64,000 nucleotides of DNA from Moraxella sp. (GTDB lineage Bacteria > Pseudomonadota > Gammaproteobacteria > Pseudomonadales > Moraxellaceae). Below the pieces are notes generated by a model. That model did no database searches and had not been told where the DNA came from. It worked only from the letters and a program-made list of their open reading frames with translations. This document shows, in pieces, positions 2,545 through 40,025 of the stretch. The DNA is taken from the NCBI GenBank assembly GCA_030528385.1, contig JAUMYZ010000003.1, positions 62,001 to 126,000 of the forward strand, read 5' to 3'. The translations under genes were made by a program, and so were the position numbers. Each line of letters starts with the position of its first letter. The first letter of the stretch is position 1.

Positions 2545-3801
2545 ATGTTAAAAAAAACCGCCTTACTATTGTGTTTTCTTGGTGCAGCGCCAATGGTTTA
2601 TGCCAATTATTTGAGCAATTACGGTGAACCAAACACCGCCAATTTGGTCAATGCCATCAACAATCGCTTGCTGCATGTGGTGCAGTTGGGCGACTCACAT
2701 ACCGCAGGCGACACCATGACCGAAGCCACCAGAAGTCGCTTACAAAGCGTGCTTGGTGATGGTGGTATGGGTTGGGCAATGCCGATGTATTTTAGTGGGC
2801 AGCGCATGGCGCGTTTTGGTTATGACAACAGCAACTTTACACCGATTTCTAGTCGTAGCAATAGTAGCGAAAACTACACGCTTGGCGGTATGATTGCCAG
2901 ACCCAAAGCCAATGGTGCAAGCCTGACCCTAAAAGCCAAGCGCACCGAAGTTGCCCAAAAAATCTTGGTGAGCATTCGCCAGATGGCAGGCGATGGCAGG
3001 TTTGTGGCAACAGACGCAACGGGCGCACGCTTTGCCATAGAAACCCCTTACAAAAATGGCGCTTGGCAGATGGTTGCCATCAACGCCAAATTGCCCTTAA
3101 CGCTTTATAATGAAGGGGCAAATCATTCGGCGATTGGGGGTTGGTGGGCATTTAATCCCAATCAACAAGGCGCGGTGGTCTCGGCGCTGGGCATCAATGG
3201 CGCAGAGTTGTCGCACTGGAATCGCTGGAGCGAATCGGCGTGGCAAAACGAACTAAAAACCATCAATCCGCAGCTGATTGTGATTGCCTATGGCACCAAC
3301 GAAGCCTATAACGGCGTTGATGCCCAAAGTGTCAAAAATCACTTACAATGGCGCGTGCGCCAGCTCAGACAGCACATACCCACAGCCGCCATCATGATTG
3401 TAGGAGCGCCAGAAGCCCTAAAAAGCACCGCAGGTGGCTGCGGCACACGTCCTGCAACGCTCAATGCCATTCAGCAGGCGCAACGAGAAGTCGCCCAAAG
3501 TGAACACACTTTGTATTGGGATTGGCAAGCGGCAATGGGTGGCAGCTGTTCTATGAAAGCGTGGATAAATTCAGGCAAGGCCAATCGTGATGGTGTGCAT
3601 TTTAGTGCGTCAGGATATGGCGCGCTTGGCACGCAGCTGGCGGACGATTTGTTGGCGTTGGGCAGTCGTGGTGGTTATTACCATGGTTATGGCGCAGGTC
3701 ATGCCAACCAACCGAGCGCACCTTATGTGCCAGCCAGTACGCCCAACGTCCCAAGCAGCACCCAAGGCTTTATTCGTATTGAGCGTGCCAACCCACAATA
3801 A
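2545..3801 (+). CDS. Secreted SGNH hydrolase, Ape1-like peptidoglycan O-acetylesterase candidate
   Basis: This 418-residue protein has a clear signal peptide (MLKKTALLLCFLGAAPMVYA). The mature part shows GDSHTAGD (nucleophile Ser block), the YGTNEA block and DGVHFSASGYG carrying the Asp-His pair of the catalytic triad. The wording of these blocks resembles neisserial Ape1, which removes O-acetyl groups from peptidoglycan in the periplasm. The C-terminal 60 residues are rich in Gly, Tyr, Pro and Ser and look unstructured. It follows its neighbour by 17 bases and completes a likely three-gene operon: membrane acyltransferase, SGNH partner, esterase. The substrate is inferred from family resemblance. 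Confidence 0.75.
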   Translation: MLKKTALLLCFLGAAPMVYANYLSNYGEPNTANLVNAINNRLLHVVQLGDSHTAGDTMTEATRSRLQSVLGDGGMGWAMPMYFSGQRMARFGYDNSNFTPISSRSNSSENYTLGGMIARPKANGASLTLKAKRTEVAQKILVSIRQMAGDGRFVATDATGARFAIETPYKNGAWQMVAINAKLPLTLYNEGANHSAIGGWWAFNPNQQGAVVSALGINGAELSHWNRWSESAWQNELKTINPQLIVIAYGTNEAYNGVDAQSVKNHLQWRVRQLRQHIPTAAIMIVGAPEALKSTAGGCGTRPATLNAIQQAQREVAQSEHTLYWDWQAAMGGSCSMKAWINSGKANRDGVHFSASGYGALGTQLADDLLALGSRGGYYHGYGAGHANQPSAPYVPASTPNVPSSTQGFIRIERANPQ

Positions 3802-27641: not shown

Positions 27642-30600
27642 TTTCTAAGCCATCTACATGATGGTTAACTTGGATAAGTTGGGGATATATGATTGTCTGT
27701 ATTTCTAAGCCATCTACATGATGGTTAACTTAGTAAAATGCGTCCCTTTGTTGTTGGCATATTTCTAAGCCATCTACATGATGGTTAACAAAATACAGTT
27801 AATTAGGGCATTGACGGCTCATTTCTAAGCCATCTACATGATGGTTAACACCATGTCTAAGATGTCATTATGCAAGCGCTTTTTCTAAGCCATCTACATG
27901 ATGGTTAACTTGCGGGCTCTAAAACCAAGTGGGAACTTCTCTTTCTAAGCCATCTACATGATGGTTAACACAACAAGAAAATAATGAAGAAATGCAGAAA
28001 CTTTCTAAGCCATCTACATGATGGTTAACCTGACGCTAATGCTATGCTGGCGACTGGTGATTTTCTAAGCCATCTACATGATGGTTAACTATCACTTACA
28101 ATGTTGTGCAGTGTTGTGTTTTTTCTAAGCCATCTACATGATGGTTAACACCTAAAAGACAACGGTGCAGGCACACTGGTTTTTCTAAGCCATCTACATG
28201 ATGGTTAACATGGACGCAGTCATCAAAACAAAGGTTATTTCGTTTCTAAGCCATCTACATGATGGTTAACAAGGACTTAAGTTTGTTCAGCGTTATCTTC
28301 TTTTTCTAAGCCATCTACATGATGGTTAACATTTGGTTTTTGACTTCATCAAATTTACCGTATTTCTAAGCCATCTACATGATGGTTAACTATTACGCAC
28401 GCAACCTTTGACGTTTGCGACTTTTCTAAGCCATCTACATGATGGTTAACGATGTGCAAGCGTTGTATAATGCCATCAATGATTTCTAAGCCATCTACAT
28501 GATGGTTAACAATCTGTTCTGTACCGTCCAACTCATCTAAACTTTCTAAGCCATCTACATGATGGTTAACTCTGTTCGCACCAGTTTACCGTCTCGGTTA
28601 TCTTTCTAAGCCATCTACATGATGGTTAACGCCGTCCATTGTGCCCATCGCTTTAGAGATGATTTCTAAGCCATCTACATGATGGTTAACTGGTATCTGG
28701 CCACCAGTTTGTCCACGTTAATTTTCTAAGCCATCTACATGATGGTTAACAAGCCTGCCGATTTATTCAATGATTAACAAACTTTCTAAGCCATCTACAT
28801 GATGGTTAACTGCTCACCGCCTTCGTTTTGCCCGTAAAATTTTTTCTAAGCCATCTACATGATGGTTAACAGTTTGGAGGTTTCAGGCATGAGTTTACGG
28901 TTTTTCTAAGCCATCTACATGATGGTTAACGCAGGGGGCGGACTTGAACCGCCGACCTTATGTTTCTAAGCCATCTACATGATGGTTAACTCTTGAAAAC
29001 CCTTACGAGTACCAGCGGCTGAATTTCTAAGCCATCTACATGATGGTTAACACAAGGCTATCCAAGAAACCGCCCCAGTCTTTTTTCTAAGCCATCTACA
29101 TGATGGTTAACCATGAATTTGTAGGCATTGATTATCCTGTTGGTTTTCTAAGCCATCTACATGATGGTTAACCTGTCGTCCCAACCTGTAAAAGACGCTT
29201 CAATTTTCTAAGCCATCTACATGATGGTTAACAGGCTAAATGCCACTGATTGGCTGTTGGCAAATTTCTAAGCCATCTACATGATGGTTAACCAGTAGCT
29301 TGGCATAAGTAGGCGCTTATGCGTTTTCTAAGCCATCTACATGATGGTTAACTTCTTCAATCCCCACATACCAGATTTTATAAGTTTCTAAGCCATCTAC
29401 ATGATGGTTAACTTAATGCCAAGATTGATGGGATTAATGTGGGTTTTCTAAGCCATCTACATGATGGTTAACATAGTGATGACAAAAACAGCCAGCACAG
29501 CACATTTCTAAGCCATCTACATGATGGTTAACGATGATTTACGCCTGATGCAGTTTCGTGTCATTTTCTAAGCCATCTACATGATGGTTAACACTACAAT
29601 TAGTAAAAGACTGGCAAACAGGCTTTTCTAAGCCATCTACATGATGGTTAACATCAGGCAGTTGATTACCCTTGCTGTCAGTTTTTTCTAAGCCATCTAC
29701 ATGATGGTTAACTCATCATTTAAGAGAAATGCCAACCACAATCATTTCTAAGCCATCTACATGATGGTTAACGTAAATAAACTAGGGTTGGTTAGAGTTG
29801 GTTAATTTCTAAGCCATCTACATGATGGTTAACCATCTATCACGCATATCAAAACTACCCCCTTTTTTCTAAGCCATCTACATGATGGTTAACTTGCCGA
29901 TTTGATGAGCGTAACCACAGCTGATTTTCTAAGCCATCTACATGATGGTTAACACGTGCTTGCAGTAGTATATAACACAACTTCGTTTCTAAGCCATCTA
30001 CATGATGGTTAACATACTCGGTTTGCTCACGGTTCATGCCATCTATTTCTAAGCCATCTACATGATGGTTAACTGTATACACTAGGCAAAATAACCAAGC
30101 GCGCCTTTCTAAGCCATCTACATGATGGTTAACGGACGAAAGCTCCCCACGAATAGGCTCCGTTATTTCTAAGCCATCTACATGATGGTTAACACCACAA
30201 GGGCTTCTAGGGCTTCAAGATAAGTTTTCTAAGCCATCTACATGATGGTTAACGCGTTATATGCGCACCAGAAGTGGTACAACATTTTCTAAGCCATCTA
30301 CATGATGGTTAACAATGAGCTAAAAGCCATTTTGGACAATATGTCTTTCTAAGCCATCTACATGATGGTTAACTAGACAAAGAAACTTGCCTTTGTTTGG
30401 TGGCATTTCTAAGCCATCTACATGATGGTTAACTGCTTGCACCTGTTTTGTTGGTAGGTGCAAGGTTTCTAAGCCATCTACATGATGGTTAACTTGTGGC
30501 ACAAGGGCTCAACATCGGAAATGTATTTCTAAGCCATCTACATGATGGTTAACCGCTTCTTAGCACCCAGCAAGAAGCACCAAAATTTCTAAGCCATCTA

Positions 30601-31334
30601 CATGATGGTTAACACTTATGACCCCGATAACTGGTAGTTCTCATATTTCTAAGCCATCTACATGATGGTTAACTGTCCAAATTATCACAAATTTGGTGCG
30701 AGAGCTTTCTAAGCCATCTACATGATGGTTAACCGCCCGCTTGTGCCATCCACATGCCTACGTGATTTCTAAGCCATCTACATGATGGTTAACCTGATTT
30801 GAGCCAAGCACGCCTACAACGGTATTTTCTAAGCCATCTACATGATGGTTAACTCTTTAGATGATGGGCAAGCCCTGCAATGCTTTTTCTAAGCCATCTA
30901 CATGATGGTTAACACAACGGACAAGAAATAACCATTCATCAGTTATTTCTAAGCCATCTACATGATGGTTAACTTGCTGTTGTAGGGTGGTTATTTGCTC
31001 ATCTTTTTCTAAGCCATCTACATGATGGTTAACACGCTACAACGCTACAAGACTTGATACACAAGTTTCTAAGCCATCTACATGATGGTTAACACAATCA
31101 CGCCATAACATTCATTGGCATTGGCTTTCTAAGCCATCTACATGATGGTTAACAGTCTGAGATGATTGACGATTTGATGACCGTAATTTCTAAGCCATCT
31201 ACATGATGGTTAACATGGCGCAAAAAACAGCGTCAAGATTGTCGGCTTTCTAAGCCATCTACATGATGGTTAACGCGGTGGACAACCTGTCCACTGAAGA
31301 TTTGGTTTTCTAAGCCATCTACATGATGGTTAAC
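27642..31334 (-). CRISPR. Type I-F CRISPR array, 62 repeats and 61 spacers
   Basis: The 28-base repeat, read on the minus strand, begins GTTAACCATCATG and ends GATGGCTTAGAAA. It can form a CCATC/GATGG stem with an ATGTA loop and leaves the 8-base 5' handle CTTAGAAA, as in type I-F. The period is 60 bases with 32-base spacers. Five spacers are 33 bases, which gives 61 intervals between the first intact repeat (27642) and the last (31307). All repeats appear identical. Direction is set by the I-F repeat end and by the leader and cas6f at the high-coordinate side, so the newest spacers are near 31300. I found no spacer matching elsewhere in the window by eye. Confidence 0.98.
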
Positions 31335-31470: not shown

Positions 31471-32076
31471 TTACCAATGGGGAACGGTAACGCCATCTAA
31501 AGCATTATTGATGCCATAACTGTTAAACGTGCCTTGGGTGGGGCTGTCCACCTGTTTTTGTTGGATAAACAGGCAGTACTTGTGTCCATTGGTTTGGCTT
31601 TGTAGGGTGATAAATGGATAAGGTTTGGCTTGCTTTTTGTATTTTTGGCAATGTGCCAGCGCATCATCAAAACTTATCCCCTTGTGTTTGGCAAGGTTTT
31701 TGGCTTGAGTGTTGAGATTGGGTCGGCGGTAACGGCTGACCACGACATGAGCGCGCATTTTGTCTTCATTGACGCGGTCAATGCGCTTGATGTGCACATA
31801 GTCGTCCAGTCTGTTTAGCCATTTGGGCAGGTCAAGCGCTTCTAACAGTTCGCGACTGGGAGCAAACACCCTAAGTTTATAACCCAAAGTGGCAAAACCG
31901 CCTTGGCTTTTTTCTGAAAAATGATAATTGGGAAAACTTATGCCAATGGGTTGATTGCCCAACGTGTTTTGCAAATCTGCCAAAGCGATATGGAGCTGAT
32001 TGTAGAGCTTTGACCAAATGGCATAAGGGGGAATTTCACTGTCGGGAATTAAGCTGATTTCTTGATAAAATTTCAT
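31471..32076 (-). CDS. cas6f: Cas6f/Csy4 crRNA-processing endoribonuclease
   Basis: This 201-residue enzyme cuts the pre-crRNA at the base of the repeat hairpin and stays bound to the 3' stem-loop in the Csy complex. The N-terminus (MKFYQEISLIPDSEIPPYAI) aligns well with Csy4 of Pseudomonas. The catalytic His falls at residue 29 (NQLHIAL), the same position as in that enzyme. PFITLQSQT near residue 175 holds the active-site Ser region. The gene overlaps csy3 by four bases and precedes the leader. Confidence 0.96.
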   Translation of the reverse strand: MKFYQEISLIPDSEIPPYAIWSKLYNQLHIALADLQNTLGNQPIGISFPNYHFSEKSQGGFATLGYKLRVFAPSRELLEALDLPKWLNRLDDYVHIKRIDRVNEDKMRAHVVVSRYRRPNLNTQAKNLAKHKGISFDDALAHCQKYKKQAKPYPFITLQSQTNGHKYCLFIQQKQVDSPTQGTFNSYGINNALDGVTVPHW

Positions 32077-33083
32077 GATTCTTTACCACTTTCACCAAAG
32101 ACGCCACCACGAATCAACACAGCCATCACATAGTGCTGCTCATCAACCGATGGCACAGCGCCTTTGAGCACCCAGCTGTCAAATAGGCTATAAAAATCTT
32201 GTTTTTGTTTGGGTTGGCGAAACGCTGTGCCAAGCGTGGTAACCGCTCCATAAGGCTCAATGGCGATGGGAAATTGGGCGTCAAGATACCAGTCATCAAT
32301 GGTGCGAATGGCGTTACTGACTTTTTGGGAGTGCATGGCGGCGTGGTTGTTTTGGGTGTTGCCAGCGCGGTACAACACTTTGCTTTTTTTGTTGCCTGTG
32401 TCCAAAATCAACTCTTGAGATGGATAGACTTCTTGGGCATAACCAACTTTGGCTTTGGCAGTAACGTTTAAGATGATGAATTGTTCGCCAAGCAAGCCTT
32501 GTTGTATCCATGTGCTTAGTTGTGTCAGCTCTGGACTGGTTTGGTTGAAGTCATTGAATTTGATGGCTTTGGCGTCTGCAAAAACAACGGTTTGCTTGCC
32601 ACAAGAAACGCTGACTTCAATATGCTCAGCGCCCAAGCGATTGCGCCACAAAAAGCGTGCGTTGGCAATGTTGATGGCATAACGTTTGGCAAGCTCGCTA
32701 AATTGGTGGGTTTTTTTGTAATCGCTGACGATGTCAATGACCGCTTTTTGGTAGTCTGGTTCATTGCACACGTTGGGCGTACCATCAAAGGGCAGCACTT
32801 TGCAGCTGAACTTGACCACCAAGGTGTCGCAATCTTGGTCTAAGCTGCTGGCATCAACGCGTTGCAAGTTGGCTTTTTCGGTTTCGGCATCCAGTTTGGC
32901 GGGGTCGCTGGTGATGGCGTTTTTTAGGCGGTTGCTGATGGTGCCACGCACGGACTTTTCTTGTACGCTGACAATGCGCGCGTTTTGTGCTTTGTCTTGG
33001 CTGTTGAGTTGCCAAAAGTAGGCATCGGACACATCAAGTTTGCGCTCAAATGCCAAAACGGTGGGGGTATGTAATTTTGTCAT
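32073..33083 (-). CDS. csy3: Csy3 (Cas7f) backbone subunit
   Basis: The 336-residue Cas7f forms the six-copy backbone along the crRNA spacer in the type I-F surveillance complex. LAFERKLDVSDAYFW at the N-terminus and ANARFLWRNRLGAEHIEV are characteristic of Csy3. It starts 9 bases after csy2 and overlaps cas6f by four bases, in the standard csy1-csy2-csy3-cas6f order. Confidence 0.97.
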   Translation of the reverse strand: MTKLHTPTVLAFERKLDVSDAYFWQLNSQDKAQNARIVSVQEKSVRGTISNRLKNAITSDPAKLDAETEKANLQRVDASSLDQDCDTLVVKFSCKVLPFDGTPNVCNEPDYQKAVIDIVSDYKKTHQFSELAKRYAINIANARFLWRNRLGAEHIEVSVSCGKQTVVFADAKAIKFNDFNQTSPELTQLSTWIQQGLLGEQFIILNVTAKAKVGYAQEVYPSQELILDTGNKKSKVLYRAGNTQNNHAAMHSQKVSNAIRTIDDWYLDAQFPIAIEPYGAVTTLGTAFRQPKQKQDFYSLFDSWVLKGAVPSVDEQHYVMAVLIRGGVFGESGKES

Positions 33084-33092
33084 AAAACTTCC

Positions 33093-34040
33093 TTAGGGTT
33101 GGTTGGGTTGTTGGGTAACTAAATACAAAGACGATTGTGGGTCATGACGACAAAACCATAGGGCTTGTGTCAGCTCAACAAAATGAACAAACTTCCATTT
33201 GCCAAGACCATAAACCGCTTCAACATACTGGCTTGGATATTGCTGGCTGCGGCTGTTTTTTAGAGTGTTGGCGTCAAACAAAGGTGAGATGCCCACAAAG
33301 CCCATAGGCATTGGCACAAGCCAGCCCCGCCCTGTCTTAACCGATGTGGTGTGCCAGCTGTCGTGGGTGTCGTCTGGTGGGTTGTGATATAAGGTAGAAA
33401 CGGCAATCAAAGCATCAAGCGCGGTTTTGTTGGGGTCTTGTTCTTGGAGTTCTTGGGTGATGTCTGACAGCTCTTGATGGGCATCCATCAGCACAAAAGC
33501 GGGGCGCAGTTTGTTTTTGATTTTGGCGGCACTGCGCTCGTGGTGGCTAAAGAATGACACCTTTTTTAGGCTGCTGACGCTGCCCCCAGCAAACCGCTGC
33601 TGCTGCGCCAGTTGGCTGACGGTGTCGCACAACAGGTGTTTGGCAGTCTCTTGGCTGTACCCTATAACGTCTGTATGATAAACACCGACCACCAAGCTCA
33701 CCACCAAATGGCAGCGACCTTCTTCAATGATGGGGGCGGTTTTGCCGGTTTTAAGCAAGGGGTTGCGCGTTTGTACAAAGCTAAAGTCGCCAAAAGGATG
33801 GTTGCGATAACTTTGTACTTGGCATTCATGACAGGCAATCATCACGCCATCTAGGGCAAAGTCAGACAGCGCATCAATTTGGGCAAGTTTGCGACTTAGG
33901 GCGTGTGTGGCGCCTGCAAAGCCAGTAATTGCAGGAAAGCCATAGGTAAGGGGGCTGGAGATGGCGTTGGCATTGATAATCTGTATTCTTTCAAGCAAAA
34001 GATAGCCAATAAGTTCTGACTGCGGATAAATATAACTCAT
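33093..34040 (-). CDS. csy2: Csy2 (Cas5f) subunit
   Basis: The 315-residue Cas5f pairs with Csy1 at the crRNA 5' handle. ITGFAGATHALSRKL and RGWLVPMPMGFVGISPLF match Csy2. The start overlaps the csy1 stop by four bases (ATGA), supporting equimolar translation of the Csy1-Csy2 head. Confidence 0.95.
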   Translation of the reverse strand: MSYIYPQSELIGYLLLERIQIINANAISSPLTYGFPAITGFAGATHALSRKLAQIDALSDFALDGVMIACHECQVQSYRNHPFGDFSFVQTRNPLLKTGKTAPIIEEGRCHLVVSLVVGVYHTDVIGYSQETAKHLLCDTVSQLAQQQRFAGGSVSSLKKVSFFSHHERSAAKIKNKLRPAFVLMDAHQELSDITQELQEQDPNKTALDALIAVSTLYHNPPDDTHDSWHTTSVKTGRGWLVPMPMGFVGISPLFDANTLKNSRSQQYPSQYVEAVYGLGKWKFVHFVELTQALWFCRHDPQSSLYLVTQQPNQP

Positions 34041-35404
34041 ACAAAAACCTTTTCTCCCAAGTATTGGCTGTGGGCGATAGTTTGTTTCATGTGCTTAGCC
34101 CACGCTTGATGTTCTGCTGCACCAAAATGATGGGCGTTCTTTTTAAAGTTGTGTTTTAGCTGTTTTTGTAGCCAGTTGGCAAAATCTTGAGCGATTTGGG
34201 CGTGCCAATCGCTGTGCTCGCGCTCGGTGTCAAATGCTGTATCCAGTTCAGCGCGCTGCGGGTCAAGCCAGTACTGCTGGGCTTTGGGCAAATGGCAGTC
34301 TTTGGACCAGCCAGCAGGTTGATTGTGTTGAATGTCGCTTGCCAGCTGGATGATTTTGAGCAAAATCTCTTCAATGATGTCATCGCGTCTGCTGCGAACT
34401 TGAACGTTATTGGTTTGGCTTGCGATGTTTTTAAACAGAGCGCTGAGTAACTCATGGGTATAAAAACGTATGCCTTTAATGTCAAAAAAATTGCTGGCAG
34501 ATTGGTGAATGCTCAAACTGCTGCTGGCTTTAAAACTTGGTGGAACAGAAGGCAAAAGATACACTCGTCCACTTTTTTTGCTGATAAGCTGCGAGACGTT
34601 TTGGGGTTTGGTGCCACCTAAGTGCAAAATCGTCAAATCTGGAATGCTGACATAGGCCATTTGTTTGTCGCTTTTTTTGTGGCGACTTTCTTTGGCGCTT
34701 TGATTGGCTGCTGAGTAACGCAATTCTTGGATTTTGTGATACACATCATGTGTCAGCACAGATGGATAAAGCGGAACAATGGTGTGATACAGGTCTGTTT
34801 TGTCAATCGCCCACAAGAGCTGTTTGTTGCGTTCGTGGGTTTTGGGGTTTGTGGGTTGATTGTTTAGGCAGGCAAAAAATAATTGCTGATAGCTGTCAGA
34901 GACCGTCAAATCATCATCAAAACAACCAGTCAGTGCTGGGTGTTTGCCAAGAATTAAATCGCGCATTTTGATGCTTTGTTCGTCGTCTATCCAACAATCA
35001 AAAAACGTTGCCAAGGGCAGGGCGGCGGCATTGCCATTGGCATCAAGATGAAGATTGGGCAGGGTGTGTGTGCCAACATAGGCGATGGGCAAAGATGGGT
35101 TTGGTGTGTATCTGACGTTGTCGCCTTTAGCGTCGGGGTGAACACCTTTTGAGATGTGCGTGCCAAACTTTAGCTGTCTGGCCATTTTTTGGGCTTCTTG
35201 TGCCAGCCATTCGCTTTTGCAAAATTTTAATTGCAAAGACTGCAACACTGCCAAAAGTTCATTTATCTTGGCAAGGTCGTTGTTTTCTTGAGCTTTGGCG
35301 AGCTGTTTTAGGTCTTTGTCGGCTTTTTTGTGATAAAGACCTAACAAAAAATCATCAATCGCCTTTTTGATTTGTTGTTGGCTAATCGTATCAATATTTG
35401 CCAT
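34037..35404 (-). CDS. csy1: Csy1 (Cas8f) large subunit
   Basis: The 455-residue Cas8f recognises the CC PAM and recruits Cas2-3. The family features seen include the N-terminal helical region (QIKKAIDDFLLGLYHKKADK), THISKGVHPDAKGDNVRYTP, and YVGTHTLPNLHLDANGNAA. It is the first gene of the csy operon; the upstream gap to cas2-3 carries an AT-rich promoter region and the CreR-like locus. Confidence 0.96.
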   Translation of the reverse strand: MANIDTISQQQIKKAIDDFLLGLYHKKADKDLKQLAKAQENNDLAKINELLAVLQSLQLKFCKSEWLAQEAQKMARQLKFGTHISKGVHPDAKGDNVRYTPNPSLPIAYVGTHTLPNLHLDANGNAAALPLATFFDCWIDDEQSIKMRDLILGKHPALTGCFDDDLTVSDSYQQLFFACLNNQPTNPKTHERNKQLLWAIDKTDLYHTIVPLYPSVLTHDVYHKIQELRYSAANQSAKESRHKKSDKQMAYVSIPDLTILHLGGTKPQNVSQLISKKSGRVYLLPSVPPSFKASSSLSIHQSASNFFDIKGIRFYTHELLSALFKNIASQTNNVQVRSRRDDIIEEILLKIIQLASDIQHNQPAGWSKDCHLPKAQQYWLDPQRAELDTAFDTEREHSDWHAQIAQDFANWLQKQLKHNFKKNAHHFGAAEHQAWAKHMKQTIAHSQYLGEKVFV

Positions 35405-35461: not shown

Positions 35462-35474
35462 CCTATTTATAGTT
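35462..35474 (+). promoter_or_regulatory. Candidate CreR target: CC PAM and 11-nt protospacer seed in the csy1 promoter region
   Basis: CC at 35462-35463 is followed by TATTTATAGTT (35464-35474), identical to the first 11 bases of the mini-array spacer at 35549-35559. On the minus strand the same bases form the TATAAA-like boxes 60-70 bases upstream of the csy1 start codon, so a bound Csy complex would cover the csy1 promoter. PAM and seed placement follow known type I-F rules; the regulation itself is inferred. Confidence 0.75.
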
Positions 35475-35489
35475 TATAATATAAAAATT

Positions 35490-35518
35490 TTGACTGATAT
35501 GGTGCGTTCCTTTATAAT
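35490..35518 (+). promoter_or_regulatory. Strong sigma-70 promoter for the CreR-like RNA
   Basis: TTGACT (35490-35495) and TATAAT (35513-35518) are spaced by exactly 17 bases. No coding frame follows. Transcription would start near 35525, at the base of the first repeat hairpin, and read away from csy1. Confidence 0.85.
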
Positions 35519-35520
35519 TA

Positions 35521-35593
35521 GTTACCCATCATACAGATGGCTTAGAAATATTTATAGTTAAGTTGTTTGCCACCGTGTAGGTGGTTTATTTTT
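35521..35593 (+). ncRNA. CreR-like mini-CRISPR RNA between cas2-3 and csy1
   Basis: A degenerate repeat (35521-35548) matches the array repeat at 25 of 28 positions, keeping the CCATC/GATGG stem and the whole CTTAGAAA handle. A 16-base spacer follows (35549-35564). The second repeat (35565-35592) matches about 18 of 28, but compensating changes preserve a perfect CCACC/GGTGG stem, and it is followed by TTTATTTTT, so it can also terminate transcription. The spacer's first 11 bases match the csy1 promoter region next to a CC PAM. CRISPR-derived guide RNAs that make Cas complexes repress their own promoters (CreR) are known from several CRISPR types; this locus has every expected part. It lies opposite to the csy and cas strands. 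Confidence 0.8.
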
Positions 35594-38500
35594 CTTGTTG
35601 CCAGCACCCCAAATATTCATCAAAAAACCACGGTCGGCTGTCGTCTGGTCGCTCAGGAGTGCTGAGCGTACAAAAGCGCATCAGCAGCGTGGTGTTGCTA
35701 AGCTCTGGATAATGCTGACAGATGTTTTGTAGTTCATCGTATAGGCGCGCGTTCAGCCATGGGCACACGTGCCGATTGTTGTTGCTGATGGGTTGGTGTA
35801 TCAGTCCCATGTCGGTTTTGCCATGCTTGCCATCTTCTTTGATGGCTTCATAAGTATGCACATCAAATGTGCCATCTGGGTGGGGGTTGATGACGTATTC
35901 TGTTTCTTGCTCGCCATGGCGAAAAGGGGTCAGGCAGCTTAGATGGACGTGCAAGCGGTTGGACGTTTGTGGGTCTTGCCAATAAGCGTTGACAACGTTG
36001 AGTGTTGGATTGTTCATCAAAGTGTGCATGACTTGCTGTTCTAGGTCGGCAAGGTTGCCTGTGGCATTGAGCTCTTTGGCTTTGTCAATGCGCGGTATGG
36101 CGTTGATGTTTTGGTATTGCCAAGCCGACAAAAGTGCGTTCATGTCGTGCGTAACCAGTTTGTTTTGGGCGCTTTCAAAACCAGGTTTTGTAAAGACAAT
36201 ATCCCTGCTATTGGGGTTTGCTTGTTTTTTTAATGCCTTGATGTTGTATTGCAAAATGGCAATGTTGGGCGTATCAATCACGTTGTGATGACGATGTCTT
36301 TGTACTCTGCCTGCCAACTGAATGACAGAGCGCATGGAACTTGGTTCAACAATTGCCCAATCATAATCATGGTCTCGTCCCACTTCAGCAACAGGCGTGG
36401 CAAGCACCATAAAGATGTGCTTGCGTTTGTGCGGGTGTTTGGTGATGTTGTTGGCGATGTCAGCGTGGGCGCTGATGTCTGTGTTGTCTTGGCGTTTTAA
36501 CAAAGTGTCCAAGCGGTTTTCTAGTTGGTTTCTAAGCAGCAGCACTTGCCGAGAGTGATAGCAAGCCACATAAAATTGACAATCGGCAAAGTTTTCTTGA
36601 CAAAAGTCGCCAAGGCGCTGCGTGGCTTTGACCAGAGCAATCAGCGGTTCAATATTTGCCAAGCGCACCAAACCAATGCTGACGCTGTGCGTTGTGGTGG
36701 TGTTGTGGTGGTCGTGCAAGACTGCTGCTTGACTGAGTATCTGTTGGGCAATTTGCTCAAAAAATGACTCACCTTGAGCGCGCTGTATGCAGATGGGCAT
36801 AATCTTGCCCATGCGTTTGTTGGGCTGACTTGCCAAAAACTTAACGCGCTTTTGGATAAATGCTGTGTGATGGCTGACAAAGTCAGCATCAACTTGGCAA
36901 GTTATGCTGTGATTTTCGTCAAACCATGCGCACACTGTCTTTGGGTCGGGTTTGTTAAATTGGGCGTTATAAATCTTGCGCCCCGCTTGATAGGCGTTAA
37001 ACAAACCAATCACCATATCGGGCGGCAAGGTTGCCGATGACAACAGCACCCGACTGCCAAACAAACCTGCCAAATGCACTAGGCGTGATAGGGCGGGCAG
37101 GTCGTCTTGGTCAAAATCGTCAGGCTCGTCCAAAATCAAATCGCTGCCAAACAATCTTAGTGCTGGCACGACATAGCGACCACCGCGTTTGCATTCGCAG
37201 GCTTGGATTAGGTGGTCAATGGTACAACTGACCACAGGCGTCAACAAAAGTTTTTTGGCGTTGTCATCAGCAATCACTGCGCCCAATTTTAGGTCATCGC
37301 TGTGCCAGCTGTCTTTGGCGTCCACAAACTCATCAAAGAGCCCTTGAGCGGATTCACTGCCGCTGTCTTGGCTGTCTTTGTCGGATTGGGCAAGCTCAAA
37401 CAGTTGTTTTTGGGCAAGTCCGCCCACCAAAATGGCGAGTTGGTTGTCGTTTAGTTGTAAATCGCGGCGAAGGCTTTGTCCTGTTTGTAAAGTCAAAACG
37501 CGCAGTCCCAAAGCGATGGTCAGGCGCGAGCCTTGTTTGGGGTCGCTAAGTGCGCACATGATACGGGCGTTGCCAATGGTTTTGCCTGTGCCAGTGCTTG
37601 CCATATTGACCCCAAAAAAGCCGTGGGTTTGGCTGCTTTGTTGATGCTTTAAAGCCGCTTTAAAGGCTTTGTTTTGCCAAAGAAATCGGTCTTTGTCGGT
37701 GTTTTGTAGTAAGGGGTTGTGATTGGTGAGCTTGGGCAAGCTGTGGTGCAAAAATGGCAATGCGCGCACAAAATCGCCTGCAAATCTTGCCACCCCAAGC
37801 AAATGCTCATCCAAGGTTTGTTTGGTTTTTGCTTTACTTTTGCCCGATGGATAATAGGTGTTGGCAGCCAGCGTGGTGCAATGATTTGTTTGGCGCAGTC
37901 TTTGGGGGCTGTTGGCTGGCAAACCAGAATAACGATGGTCGCCCACCATCAGGCTAAGCCGAGATAAATACAATAAAAACGGGTCGGCAATGGCTTGCTT
38001 TTGGGCAAGCGCTTGAGCGCTTAATTGGGTAAGATAAGGGCTGTGCAGCGCTTTTTGGGCATAGCGTTTAAGCTGTTTTTGCCATAAGGGGTTTTGTACA
38101 ATAAACTGACTAAATTGCCAAAAAATATCGTTATCTGACCGTGCTGAGTCGTTTTTTACCCATTTTTCTTTGGCTGTTGGCTGACTTTTATAATATTTTT
38201 GTAGGTCATAATGAAGATAATTGGGGCGGCTTTCTTTGTTTTTGTCAGGATGGTATTCGGTCAATGGCGGCAGACGGTGATGGGTAACAATCAACCAAGC
38301 CAGCCACTGAGCCAAAGGCGGTAATCTGTCCAGACATGGTTGGTCAATGCCGTCTTGCAAGGTCTGTGGGGTTGGTGCATCAATGGTGCTGTCTAATTGG
38401 CTGAAGCGTTCAAACATTTGTTGGTCGCTTTGACAGCCTGTAATCAGCCAGTTAAACAGTTTTAGAGAAACCCATTCGTGGCGGTAGGGGTCGCCCTTTG

Positions 38501-38927
38501 TGCCAGCTTGGGCAAGTTTTTGTTGAAAGCCATCGCTGGATTTGCCAATGTCATGAAACAGCCCCGCCAAAGTGGTGATGATTTGTAGGGCAGACAAAAA
38601 ATGCCAGTCGTTTTGCCAGTCTTGGTGCAAAAGGTCGCGCTTGGTGTAATTGACCGCCACTTTGCCCGTGTCATCAAAGCTGCTGCGACTGCCCACAATC
38701 CACAAAAGCTCGGTGGTGTGGCGACTTTTGATGCGATGACAACTGACGCAGAGCAGTTTGGATTTGCTGGCGGCGGCTTTGAGTTGCCCATAAACGGCTT
38801 GCAGACCAGCTTGGGTGATGGTGGTTTGCCAGACGTCGTCGCCAATGCGGTTGGCAAAGGCATCTAGAATTTGGTTGGTTTTGTTTTTTGCTTTCTTTTG
38901 TGATTTTGAGATGAAAGTAACAATCAT
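35586..38927 (-). CDS. cas3: Cas2-Cas3 fusion helicase-nuclease (type I-F)
   Basis: The protein combines the Cas2 adaptation subunit with the Cas3 effector. The ATG at 38927 overlaps the cas1 stop by four bases and gives 1113 residues; a GTG/ATG further up is less likely. Residues 1-95 are the Cas2 domain (MIVTFISKSQKKAKNKTNQ). The HD nuclease follows (LAGLFHDIGKSSDGF, near residue 125). The SF2 helicase has Walker A ASTGTGKT, the DEPDDFD box, the SSATLP motif III and QLAGRVQRHRH motif VI. All key residues are present, so interference should be functional. Its 3' end overlaps the mini-CRISPR by a few bases. Confidence 0.97.
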   Translation of the reverse strand: MIVTFISKSQKKAKNKTNQILDAFANRIGDDVWQTTITQAGLQAVYGQLKAAASKSKLLCVSCHRIKSRHTTELLWIVGSRSSFDDTGKVAVNYTKRDLLHQDWQNDWHFLSALQIITTLAGLFHDIGKSSDGFQQKLAQAGTKGDPYRHEWVSLKLFNWLITGCQSDQQMFERFSQLDSTIDAPTPQTLQDGIDQPCLDRLPPLAQWLAWLIVTHHRLPPLTEYHPDKNKESRPNYLHYDLQKYYKSQPTAKEKWVKNDSARSDNDIFWQFSQFIVQNPLWQKQLKRYAQKALHSPYLTQLSAQALAQKQAIADPFLLYLSRLSLMVGDHRYSGLPANSPQRLRQTNHCTTLAANTYYPSGKSKAKTKQTLDEHLLGVARFAGDFVRALPFLHHSLPKLTNHNPLLQNTDKDRFLWQNKAFKAALKHQQSSQTHGFFGVNMASTGTGKTIGNARIMCALSDPKQGSRLTIALGLRVLTLQTGQSLRRDLQLNDNQLAILVGGLAQKQLFELAQSDKDSQDSGSESAQGLFDEFVDAKDSWHSDDLKLGAVIADDNAKKLLLTPVVSCTIDHLIQACECKRGGRYVVPALRLFGSDLILDEPDDFDQDDLPALSRLVHLAGLFGSRVLLSSATLPPDMVIGLFNAYQAGRKIYNAQFNKPDPKTVCAWFDENHSITCQVDADFVSHHTAFIQKRVKFLASQPNKRMGKIMPICIQRAQGESFFEQIAQQILSQAAVLHDHHNTTTTHSVSIGLVRLANIEPLIALVKATQRLGDFCQENFADCQFYVACYHSRQVLLLRNQLENRLDTLLKRQDNTDISAHADIANNITKHPHKRKHIFMVLATPVAEVGRDHDYDWAIVEPSSMRSVIQLAGRVQRHRHHNVIDTPNIAILQYNIKALKKQANPNSRDIVFTKPGFESAQNKLVTHDMNALLSAWQYQNINAIPRIDKAKELNATGNLADLEQQVMHTLMNNPTLNVVNAYWQDPQTSNRLHVHLSCLTPFRHGEQETEYVINPHPDGTFDVHTYEAIKEDGKHGKTDMGLIHQPISNNNRHVCPWLNARLYDELQNICQHYPELSNTTLLMRFCTLSTPERPDDSRPWFFDEYLGCWQQEK

Positions 38928-39904
38928 AGGGTTTCCCAATGTTGATTGAGCGCCATCGCTTTGACCGTGTCAAACATCACATCAAGCGCGTTGTATGTGA
39001 TGAAATAATTTAGGCAAGTTTGGCGAAACTCTTGCTCGCTGACATTGTCTTTGGCGCAAATAAACGCCAGCGGCAACACGATGGCGTCTTTGATGATGTC
39101 TGCCACATCAAACACCAAAGCACCGCGCCGCGTTTTGCCGTGCATGATGGCGAAACCGTGGGGAATGCCAAGCACCCAAGTGGTGGTGGCCGCCAACCCA
39201 TAAGCCAGATAATTGCCATGATTTAAAAAGACGTTGGCTTTGTCAATGCCGCTGCTGTCTCTGCCAAAACCTGCTTGTTTGGTGTTTTTGGCGGCGATTT
39301 TATAAAGTTCTTTGGTCATGCGCCCTTCCAAGGCGAGCAGGTCGTTGACATGATTTTGGCACAAAATGGACTGTTGATAGTGTTTTTGTAAGCTTATGAT
39401 GGACTCTGAGCGGCTGTCAAAACCGATGTGATTAAATTCTTTGTCCTTGTCCCATACCGTCTGCATGAACCATAAGCGCGCCAGTTGCAGGCGTTTTGCC
39501 ATGTATAAGCGTTTGGCATCGTCCCACCACCATGACAACCAGCCTTGAATGTATTCGGTGGGGCGGTACTCTGACTGTGGGGTCAGCCACTCAATCTCGC
39601 TGCCCATCAATAACGGCGTGCCCCCACCGCCACAAAAGCCAATCAGCACACCAGCCCCAGCAAGCAGTCGTACGGCGGCTTGGGTGATGGACGTGCCTGT
39701 GCCCAGCAAAATGCAGGTGGTGTTAGCGATGGGGATGTTGTAGTACAGATTGTGTTTGTCGCTTTGGGTCAGGTACAAAACTCGCCCGTCTTTTTGCATG
39801 ACGCGGCAATGCTCCAGATAAAAGATGTTGGCGCGTTTGGAATGTAAGATGGTTTTAAGAGCGGCATGATTAAGGGCGCTGGTATTTTTGCGGGTGGTTT
39901 GCAT
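38924..39904 (-). CDS. cas1: Cas1 integrase (type I-F)
   Basis: Cas1 inserts new spacers together with Cas2-3. The ATG at 39904 gives 326 residues, matching type I-F Cas1; a TTG at 39943 in frame was not used. The three metal ligands are in LALEGRMTKELYK (Glu), FLNHGNYLAYG (His) and GALVFDVADIIKD (Asp). GTGTSITQAAVRLLAGAGVLI is also typical. A minus-strand TATAAT at 39953-39958 lies about 50 bases upstream. It starts the cas1-cas3 transcript. Confidence 0.96.
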   Translation of the reverse strand: MQTTRKNTSALNHAALKTILHSKRANIFYLEHCRVMQKDGRVLYLTQSDKHNLYYNIPIANTTCILLGTGTSITQAAVRLLAGAGVLIGFCGGGGTPLLMGSEIEWLTPQSEYRPTEYIQGWLSWWWDDAKRLYMAKRLQLARLWFMQTVWDKDKEFNHIGFDSRSESIISLQKHYQQSILCQNHVNDLLALEGRMTKELYKIAAKNTKQAGFGRDSSGIDKANVFLNHGNYLAYGLAATTTWVLGIPHGFAIMHGKTRRGALVFDVADIIKDAIVLPLAFICAKDNVSEQEFRQTCLNYFITYNALDVMFDTVKAMALNQHWETL

Positions 39905-40025
39905 GGTGATGTATCTGGTATCTATTTGTAAACTTAAAACCAAAAAGCAATTATTATACCAATTTAATAAAATTTTTGGTTTTTAAGACAAATGGCTTAT
40001 TTTGCAGATAAAATAATTTTTGCAC

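Follow-up and report, generated by a model that had tools for sequence, protein, structure and literature searches.

A degenerate mini-array in a Moraxella type I-F cas locus as a probable guide for Csy-mediated autorepression upstream of csy1

What does a small, degenerate repeat–spacer unit do when it lies inside a type I-F cas locus, apart from the CRISPR array of that locus? The question is raised by a 64,000-nucleotide stretch of the genome of a Moraxella sp. (contig JAUMYZ010000003.1, positions 62,001 to 126,000 of the forward strand), referred to here as the window, in which such a unit is found in the interval between cas2-3 and csy1. All six of the Cas proteins encoded at the locus (Cas1, Cas2-3 and Csy1-4) score above their family cut-offs, giving a complete effector, and on the basis of this gene set the locus was called I-F1 (Table 1). 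The canonical array contains 56 spacers of 32 nt and five of 33 nt, and none of them has a self target with CC and at most 6 mismatches when the window is searched with the array excluded.

Reading the sequence base for base, we find what the preliminary description had reported for the cas2-3/csy1 interval, namely a two-repeat degenerate mini-array with a 16-nt spacer (35521-35592, plus strand). Repeat 1 agrees with the array repeat except at 3 of its 28 positions, and an assembly-wide scan returned it as the only stand-alone repeat within 3 mismatches outside the 62 array repeats. Scored with Rfam CRISPR-DR4 it reaches 24.5 bits and the array repeats reach 24.4; neither attains the gathering score of 35. 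Repeat 2 shares 7 bp with the 3′ end of cas2-3 and has kept the 5-bp stem, the pairing of which survives a two-sided change from CCATC/GATGG to CCACC/GGTGG; since the hairpin is followed by T's it is terminator-like, and it is the one such site in a scan of the region in which 0.2 would be expected. In the minimum-energy fold of the predicted RNA (35525-35598) the handle is sequestered, and the centroid fold shows two hairpins. The unit is not a canonical array, because its repeats are degenerate and its spacer has 16 nt, as opposed to identical repeats and spacers of 32-33 nt; a degenerate repeat–spacer unit in the cas locus, apart from the array, is rather what is expected of a CreR-like guide.

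Table 1. Features of the type I-F cas locus, the mini-array and its target in the window
Feature	Position	Strand	Remarks
cas6f (csy4)	31471-32076	-	TIGR02563, 171.5 bits
csy3 (cas7f)	32073-33083	-	TIGR02566, 419.6 bits
csy2 (cas5f)	33093-34040	-	TIGR02565, 326.9 bits
csy1 (cas8f)	34037-35404	-	TIGR02564, 405.6 bits vs cut-off 169.4; first gene behind the targeted region
cas2-3	35586-38939	-	TIGR02562, 1051.6 bits, profile 1-1110 of 1110
cas1	38924-39943	-	TIGR03637, 453.6 bits
Canonical array	27642-31334	-	62 exact 28-nt repeats, 61 spacers
PAM of self target	35462-35463	+	CC, 5′ of the protospacer; sequence reading
Protospacer upstream of csy1	35464-35479	+	Spacer positions 1-11 and 13 match
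Putative guide-RNA promoter	35490-35518	+	TTGACT 35490-35495, 17 nt, TATAAT 35513-35518; 11/12
Repeat 1	35521-35548	+	GTTACCCATCATACAGATGGCTTAGAAA; stem 35526-35530/35536-35540
Repeat 1 handle	35541-35548	+	CTTAGAAA
Spacer (guide)	35549-35564	+	TATTTATAGTTAAGTT, 16 nt
Repeat 2	35565-35592	+	Stem 35570-35574/35580-35584; 3′ handle lost

The first 11 bases of the spacer had been noted to recur upstream of csy1 directly after CC, and this stood up to examination: TATTTATAGTT is present at 35464-35474, immediately after CC and upstream of csy1 by about 60 bp; overall, the guide pairs with its target at 12 of 16 positions. Dinucleotide shuffling of the 116-bp gap, repeated 20,000 times, never gave an 11/11 match after CC (10/11 was reached 11 times); without the CC requirement, 11/11 came up in 2 of 4,000 gap shuffles, whereas the best match of the 61 canonical spacers to the same gap is 7/11. 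In the whole assembly of 2,046,605 bases the full CC-seed pattern, CCTATTTNTAGTT, has a single site, which is the one at csy1. The match between guide and target in the window is beyond chance, and PAM-adjacent partial complementarity upstream of the effector operon, as in CreR-like guides, is found both here and in the relatives surveyed below.

Csy1 matches were obtained in 9 of 22 genomes of the genus and in 73 of 348 genomes of the family, and 72 of the 76 csy1 places of the family set were examined, the four weak ones being left out. On the strand opposite to that of csy1, 142 positions qualified as candidate guides by a hairpin with 4 or more of its 5 pairs and a handle agreeing at 6 or more of 8 positions, and each was compared with every nearby CC site, a match requiring at least 9 of the first 11 bases. 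A guide matching a site upstream of its own csy1 was found at 26 of the 72 family loci (29 had at least 8/11, of which L014, L043 and L053, with 8/11, were dropped), and only 98 of 10,082 swapped guide–locus pairs (1.0 percent) reached the same score. By the same criteria 46 of the 72 loci, the one of M. catarrhalis included, are without a match. Of the 9 loci of the genus, 6 carry the guide (L002, L003, L004, L005, L006 and L008), and none was detected in L007, L009 and L010; the last two are distant Csy1 relatives (23-27 percent), and at L007:2910-3608 (minus strand), on a Moraxella catarrhalis contig, the region upstream of csy1 is occupied by another gene.

The spacers follow their targets. 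In a matrix of 10 loci hand-chosen from the 26, the locus's own target gave the best fit in all 10 rows. The survey was also made on a named set of 80 csy1 loci among the matches listed, found with an alignment query where a single-protein query had found none. A guide is carried by 31 of these 80 loci among the matches listed, including loci of Pasteurella, Gilliamella, Halomonas and Advenella: 23 have it on the strand opposite to csy1 (24 had at least 9, and L138, with a mismatch at position 1, was dropped as likely chance), and 8 have it on the csy1 strand, in the orientation opposite to that of the window (L080, L082, L085, L087, L091, L101, L102 and L104, counted as real among 11 rows with at least 9, of which L030, L043 and L124 were judged chance). 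The weak case L052 was retained. Of the 31 loci, 8 carry a guide already counted in the 72-locus set, and the other 23 are not among the 72. Removal of spacers with at most 5 differences in 20 nt reduced 49 guides to 34 non-redundant ones, which differ among loci, yet each fits the site upstream of its own csy1. Guide and target thus co-vary across lineages, as they would for a CreR-like guide, and the check on seed–target co-variation in relatives that the preliminary description had called for was passed.

One of these mini-arrays has an additional component. At L021:1299-1330 (minus strand), and likewise in L086 (Psychrobacter urativorans), which has that guide too, the regulatory spacer is preceded by an extra one that is exactly 32 nt long, and the repeat copies follow each other at a distance of 60 bp (28 + 32). 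The adaptation machinery seems to have inserted a normal spacer into the regulatory mini-array. The extra spacer gave no phage match, and its first 24 nt gave no match in viral contigs.

How such guides are read can be judged from the pattern of their pairing. A search free of any PAM requirement was made at all positions on both strands, with a cut at 13/15 or more and positions 6 and 12 ignored (792 candidates). Among the resulting 50 non-redundant matches, 42 are preceded by CC, against a background of 4.3 percent, the other eight being preceded by CA (3), GA (2), CT, TC and TT (1 each); the pairing in the window, which with 12 of 16 is among the shorter ones, has 11/15 on this scoring and is below the cut. 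Over positions 1-18 the mismatches in the 34 non-redundant pairs number 0, 0, 0, 0, 0, 23, 0, 8, 3, 3, 2, 24, 2, 11, 6, 6, 8 and 21, so that there is none at positions 1-5 and 7 and there are 23 at position 6 and 24 at position 12. Taken together, positions 6 and 12 are mismatched in 47 of 68 cases (69 percent), the rate for unrelated sequence being 68 percent, which implies that they drift freely. The pairs were selected on positions 1-11, but the contrast between position 12 (24/34) and positions 13-17 (33/170; Fisher p 1.3e-8) is independent of that selection, tie-breaks aside, and chance matches between swapped loci have no excess of mismatches at position 6 (6/45). The difference between position 18 and positions 19-23 is not significant (p 0.095). 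Position 8, mismatched in 8 of 34 pairs, exceeds its neighbours and is unaccounted for by a 5+1 register. Type I-F Cascade pairs in a 5+1 manner and tolerates mismatches at every sixth position, as described in excerpts of PMC7305327, and this would give the reason for mismatches at every sixth base in natural guides. From the CC preference and the register, together with the evidence from strands discussed next, the natural guides are evidently read as crRNAs by the Csy complex, in R-loops on DNA. Among the papers listed in a literature search on mini-arrays, none was recognisable as reporting a 5+1 footprint of natural guides.

The same observations bear on other explanations. The spacer in the window is complementary to a csy1 message starting upstream of it, in an orientation that permits pairing, and the RNA could be imagined to act as an antisense on the csy1 leader transcript and not as a Csy guide. 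For antisense pairing, however, a CC is unnecessary, and so is an interruption every six bases; moreover, in 8 named loci both guide and protospacer are on the csy1 strand, where the guide is of the same sense as the csy1 message and so cannot pair with it. We regard an antisense role as extremely improbable; already the sequence, through the 5+1 footprint, argues that such guides are read by the Csy complex and not by antisense pairing. Hardly more credible is that the unit is the remnant of an old array with a spacer resembling the promoter by accident. Degenerate repeats and the 46 of 72 family loci without a match are compatible with a relic, but different spacers match different targets of their own, no shuffle out of the 20,000 equalled the match in the window, and the pairing of stem 2 was kept through a two-sided change.

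It could also be that binding of the guide activates the csy1 region or merely marks it, or that it mainly represses something else, and no distinct csy1 promoter came out of the sequence. Against this, the full CC-seed pattern has no genomic site other than that at csy1, and crRNA-like guides on cas promoters are described as repressors in excerpts of PMC12737573 and PMC13131331, and we consider such a role very unlikely. The core claim of the preliminary description, that the mini-array is a Csy guide aimed at the csy promoter region, is therefore supported by the co-variation, the CC preference and the register seen in relatives, beside the anatomy and the guide–target pairing seen in the window.

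A promoter of the form TTGACT-17-TATAAT had been claimed to precede the mini-array. The motif was confirmed, and its −10 box ends 7 nt before the first hairpin; since a promoter scan of the region gave 3 promoter-like sites where 1.7 would be expected, the match in the window is weak taken alone, but its placement is shared with relatives. At 34 loci the score of the guide promoter averages 7.94 of 12, compared with 5.87 at 742 control anchors (p 1.5e-12), and in 26 of the 34 the −10 box lies 6-8 nt ahead of the first hairpin, a placement that would set the start of the RNA at the hairpin. Scores at many of the individual loci are poor (5-7 of 12), and a promoter of the guide's own, placed for a start at the first hairpin, is a feature at the level of the consensus only. 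On the csy1 strand no promoter was found by the region scan, and a comparison of the loci singled out no −10 position when distances were taken from the target, which makes any placing of the csy1 promoter tentative. The suggestion that the complex also limits the guide's own promoter is not borne out as a conserved feature, because the 16-nt protospacer in the window ends 10 bp before the −35 box and protospacer and −35 box overlap in 2 of 12 measured loci (L006 and L012). In L012 csy1 and the guide are separated by a small ORF of 77 aa on the csy1 strand (2965-3198, minus strand), which we take to be DUF2188-like. The target is found upstream of this inserted ORF and hence seems to follow the operon promoter and not csy1 itself.

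How could a guide against the chromosome be harmless? Spacer length was measurable in 45 of 49 loci (the other 4 gave no second stem): 18 spacers have 20 nt, which is the mode, and 29 have at most 24 nt; the values of 47 (L134) and 51 (L052) are probably mis-assigned. According to excerpts of PMC7296934, I-F1 Cascades can still assemble when the spacer is truncated, the limit being about 14 nt, with three Cas7f, and the truncated complexes form R-loops without triggering Cas2/3 cleavage, which would explain how a self-targeting guide can be tolerated; the 16-nt spacer of the window is near this published lower limit. For the I-B system of Haloarcula, PMC10989794 reports repression in the absence of interference for spacers no longer than 24 bp and only weak repression, to about 67 percent of the control, for a 16-nt spacer, so that the guide in the window may be a mild repressor.

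We therefore think it very probable that the mini-array guides a shortened Csy complex to the site upstream of csy1 and that csy1-csy2-csy3-cas6f are autorepressed in this way. The mini-array would be transcribed and, after processing by Cas6f, would yield a short crRNA-like guide made up of an 8-nt handle, the 16-nt spacer and a 20-nt hairpin. With Csy1-Csy2, probably three Csy3 and Cas6f, this guide would form a shortened Csy complex, which would bind the CC-flanked site at 35462-35479 in an R-loop of about 11-13 bp. As such an R-loop would be too short to license Cas2-3, the complex would repress the four genes instead of cutting the chromosome. Canonical crRNAs from the 61 spacers would compete for the Cas proteins and relieve repression by titration, which would tie cas expression to the demand for crRNAs. 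Expression would also rise under anti-CRISPRs disabling Csy. More speculatively, and with considerable doubt, the guides might be tuned to the R-loop checkpoint of type I-F: short spacers would give small Csy complexes, with fewer Cas7f, that bind without licensing Cas2-3, and the drift at every sixth base would be the evolutionary footprint of the Cas7f register. Since a complex with three Cas7f needs about half the Cas7f of the immune complex, the guide could then sense the ratio of Cas7f to crRNA and not Cas protein as such.

The kind of circuit is already known, from CreR and from I-F1 regulatory mini-arrays, and the Moraxella locus adds a new case. Shmakov et al. (2023, NAR 51:8150) reportedly described two degenerate repeats with one spacer partially complementary to the cas8 promoter, and are said to have shown that a type I-F1 mini-array acts as a regulatory guide. 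Apparently nothing essential sets the present mini-array apart from those, its particulars being the 16-nt spacer near the limit of assembly and the terminator-like repeat 2. The CreR RNAs of I-B, I-E and V-A, as presented in excerpts of PMC13131331 and PMC12737573, are crRNA-like and act as repressors of cas operons. There, too, such an RNA is partially complementary to the cas promoter of its own system and brings the effector to it, with release by crRNAs and anti-CRISPRs, a likeness that for Moraxella is read from the sequence; the difference is that the Moraxella guide belongs to subtype I-F. CreA of the type I-B CreTA system shares the 11-bp seed match to a promoter without cleavage, but represses a toxin gene, whereas the Moraxella target lies in the 116-bp gap, the intergenic stretch on the csy1 side, and the full pattern occurs nowhere else than upstream of csy1, not at the promoter of an adjacent toxin gene. 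Racr RNA anti-CRISPRs resemble the mini-array in having a stand-alone I-F repeat behind a promoter; they are solitary repeats on viruses or plasmids in the excerpted account (PMC10651486), unlike the two repeats found here beside chromosomal-type cas genes, with a guide that matches the csy1 region of the host.

Copies of the guide in phages were looked for separately. Two pattern scans of viral contigs yielded 3 and 13 loci, all 16 with at most 3 pairs before the handle and none with a 5-pair hairpin there, and a blastn search of phages with the gap as query returned 5 matches, all weak and partial, the best with an E value of 0.05.

With more than 50 loci for comparison, the mini-array would represent a compact autoregulatory circuit in the Moraxella-type I-F system, and the 5+1 footprint that its relatives carry may be used as a test on other candidate regulatory guides.
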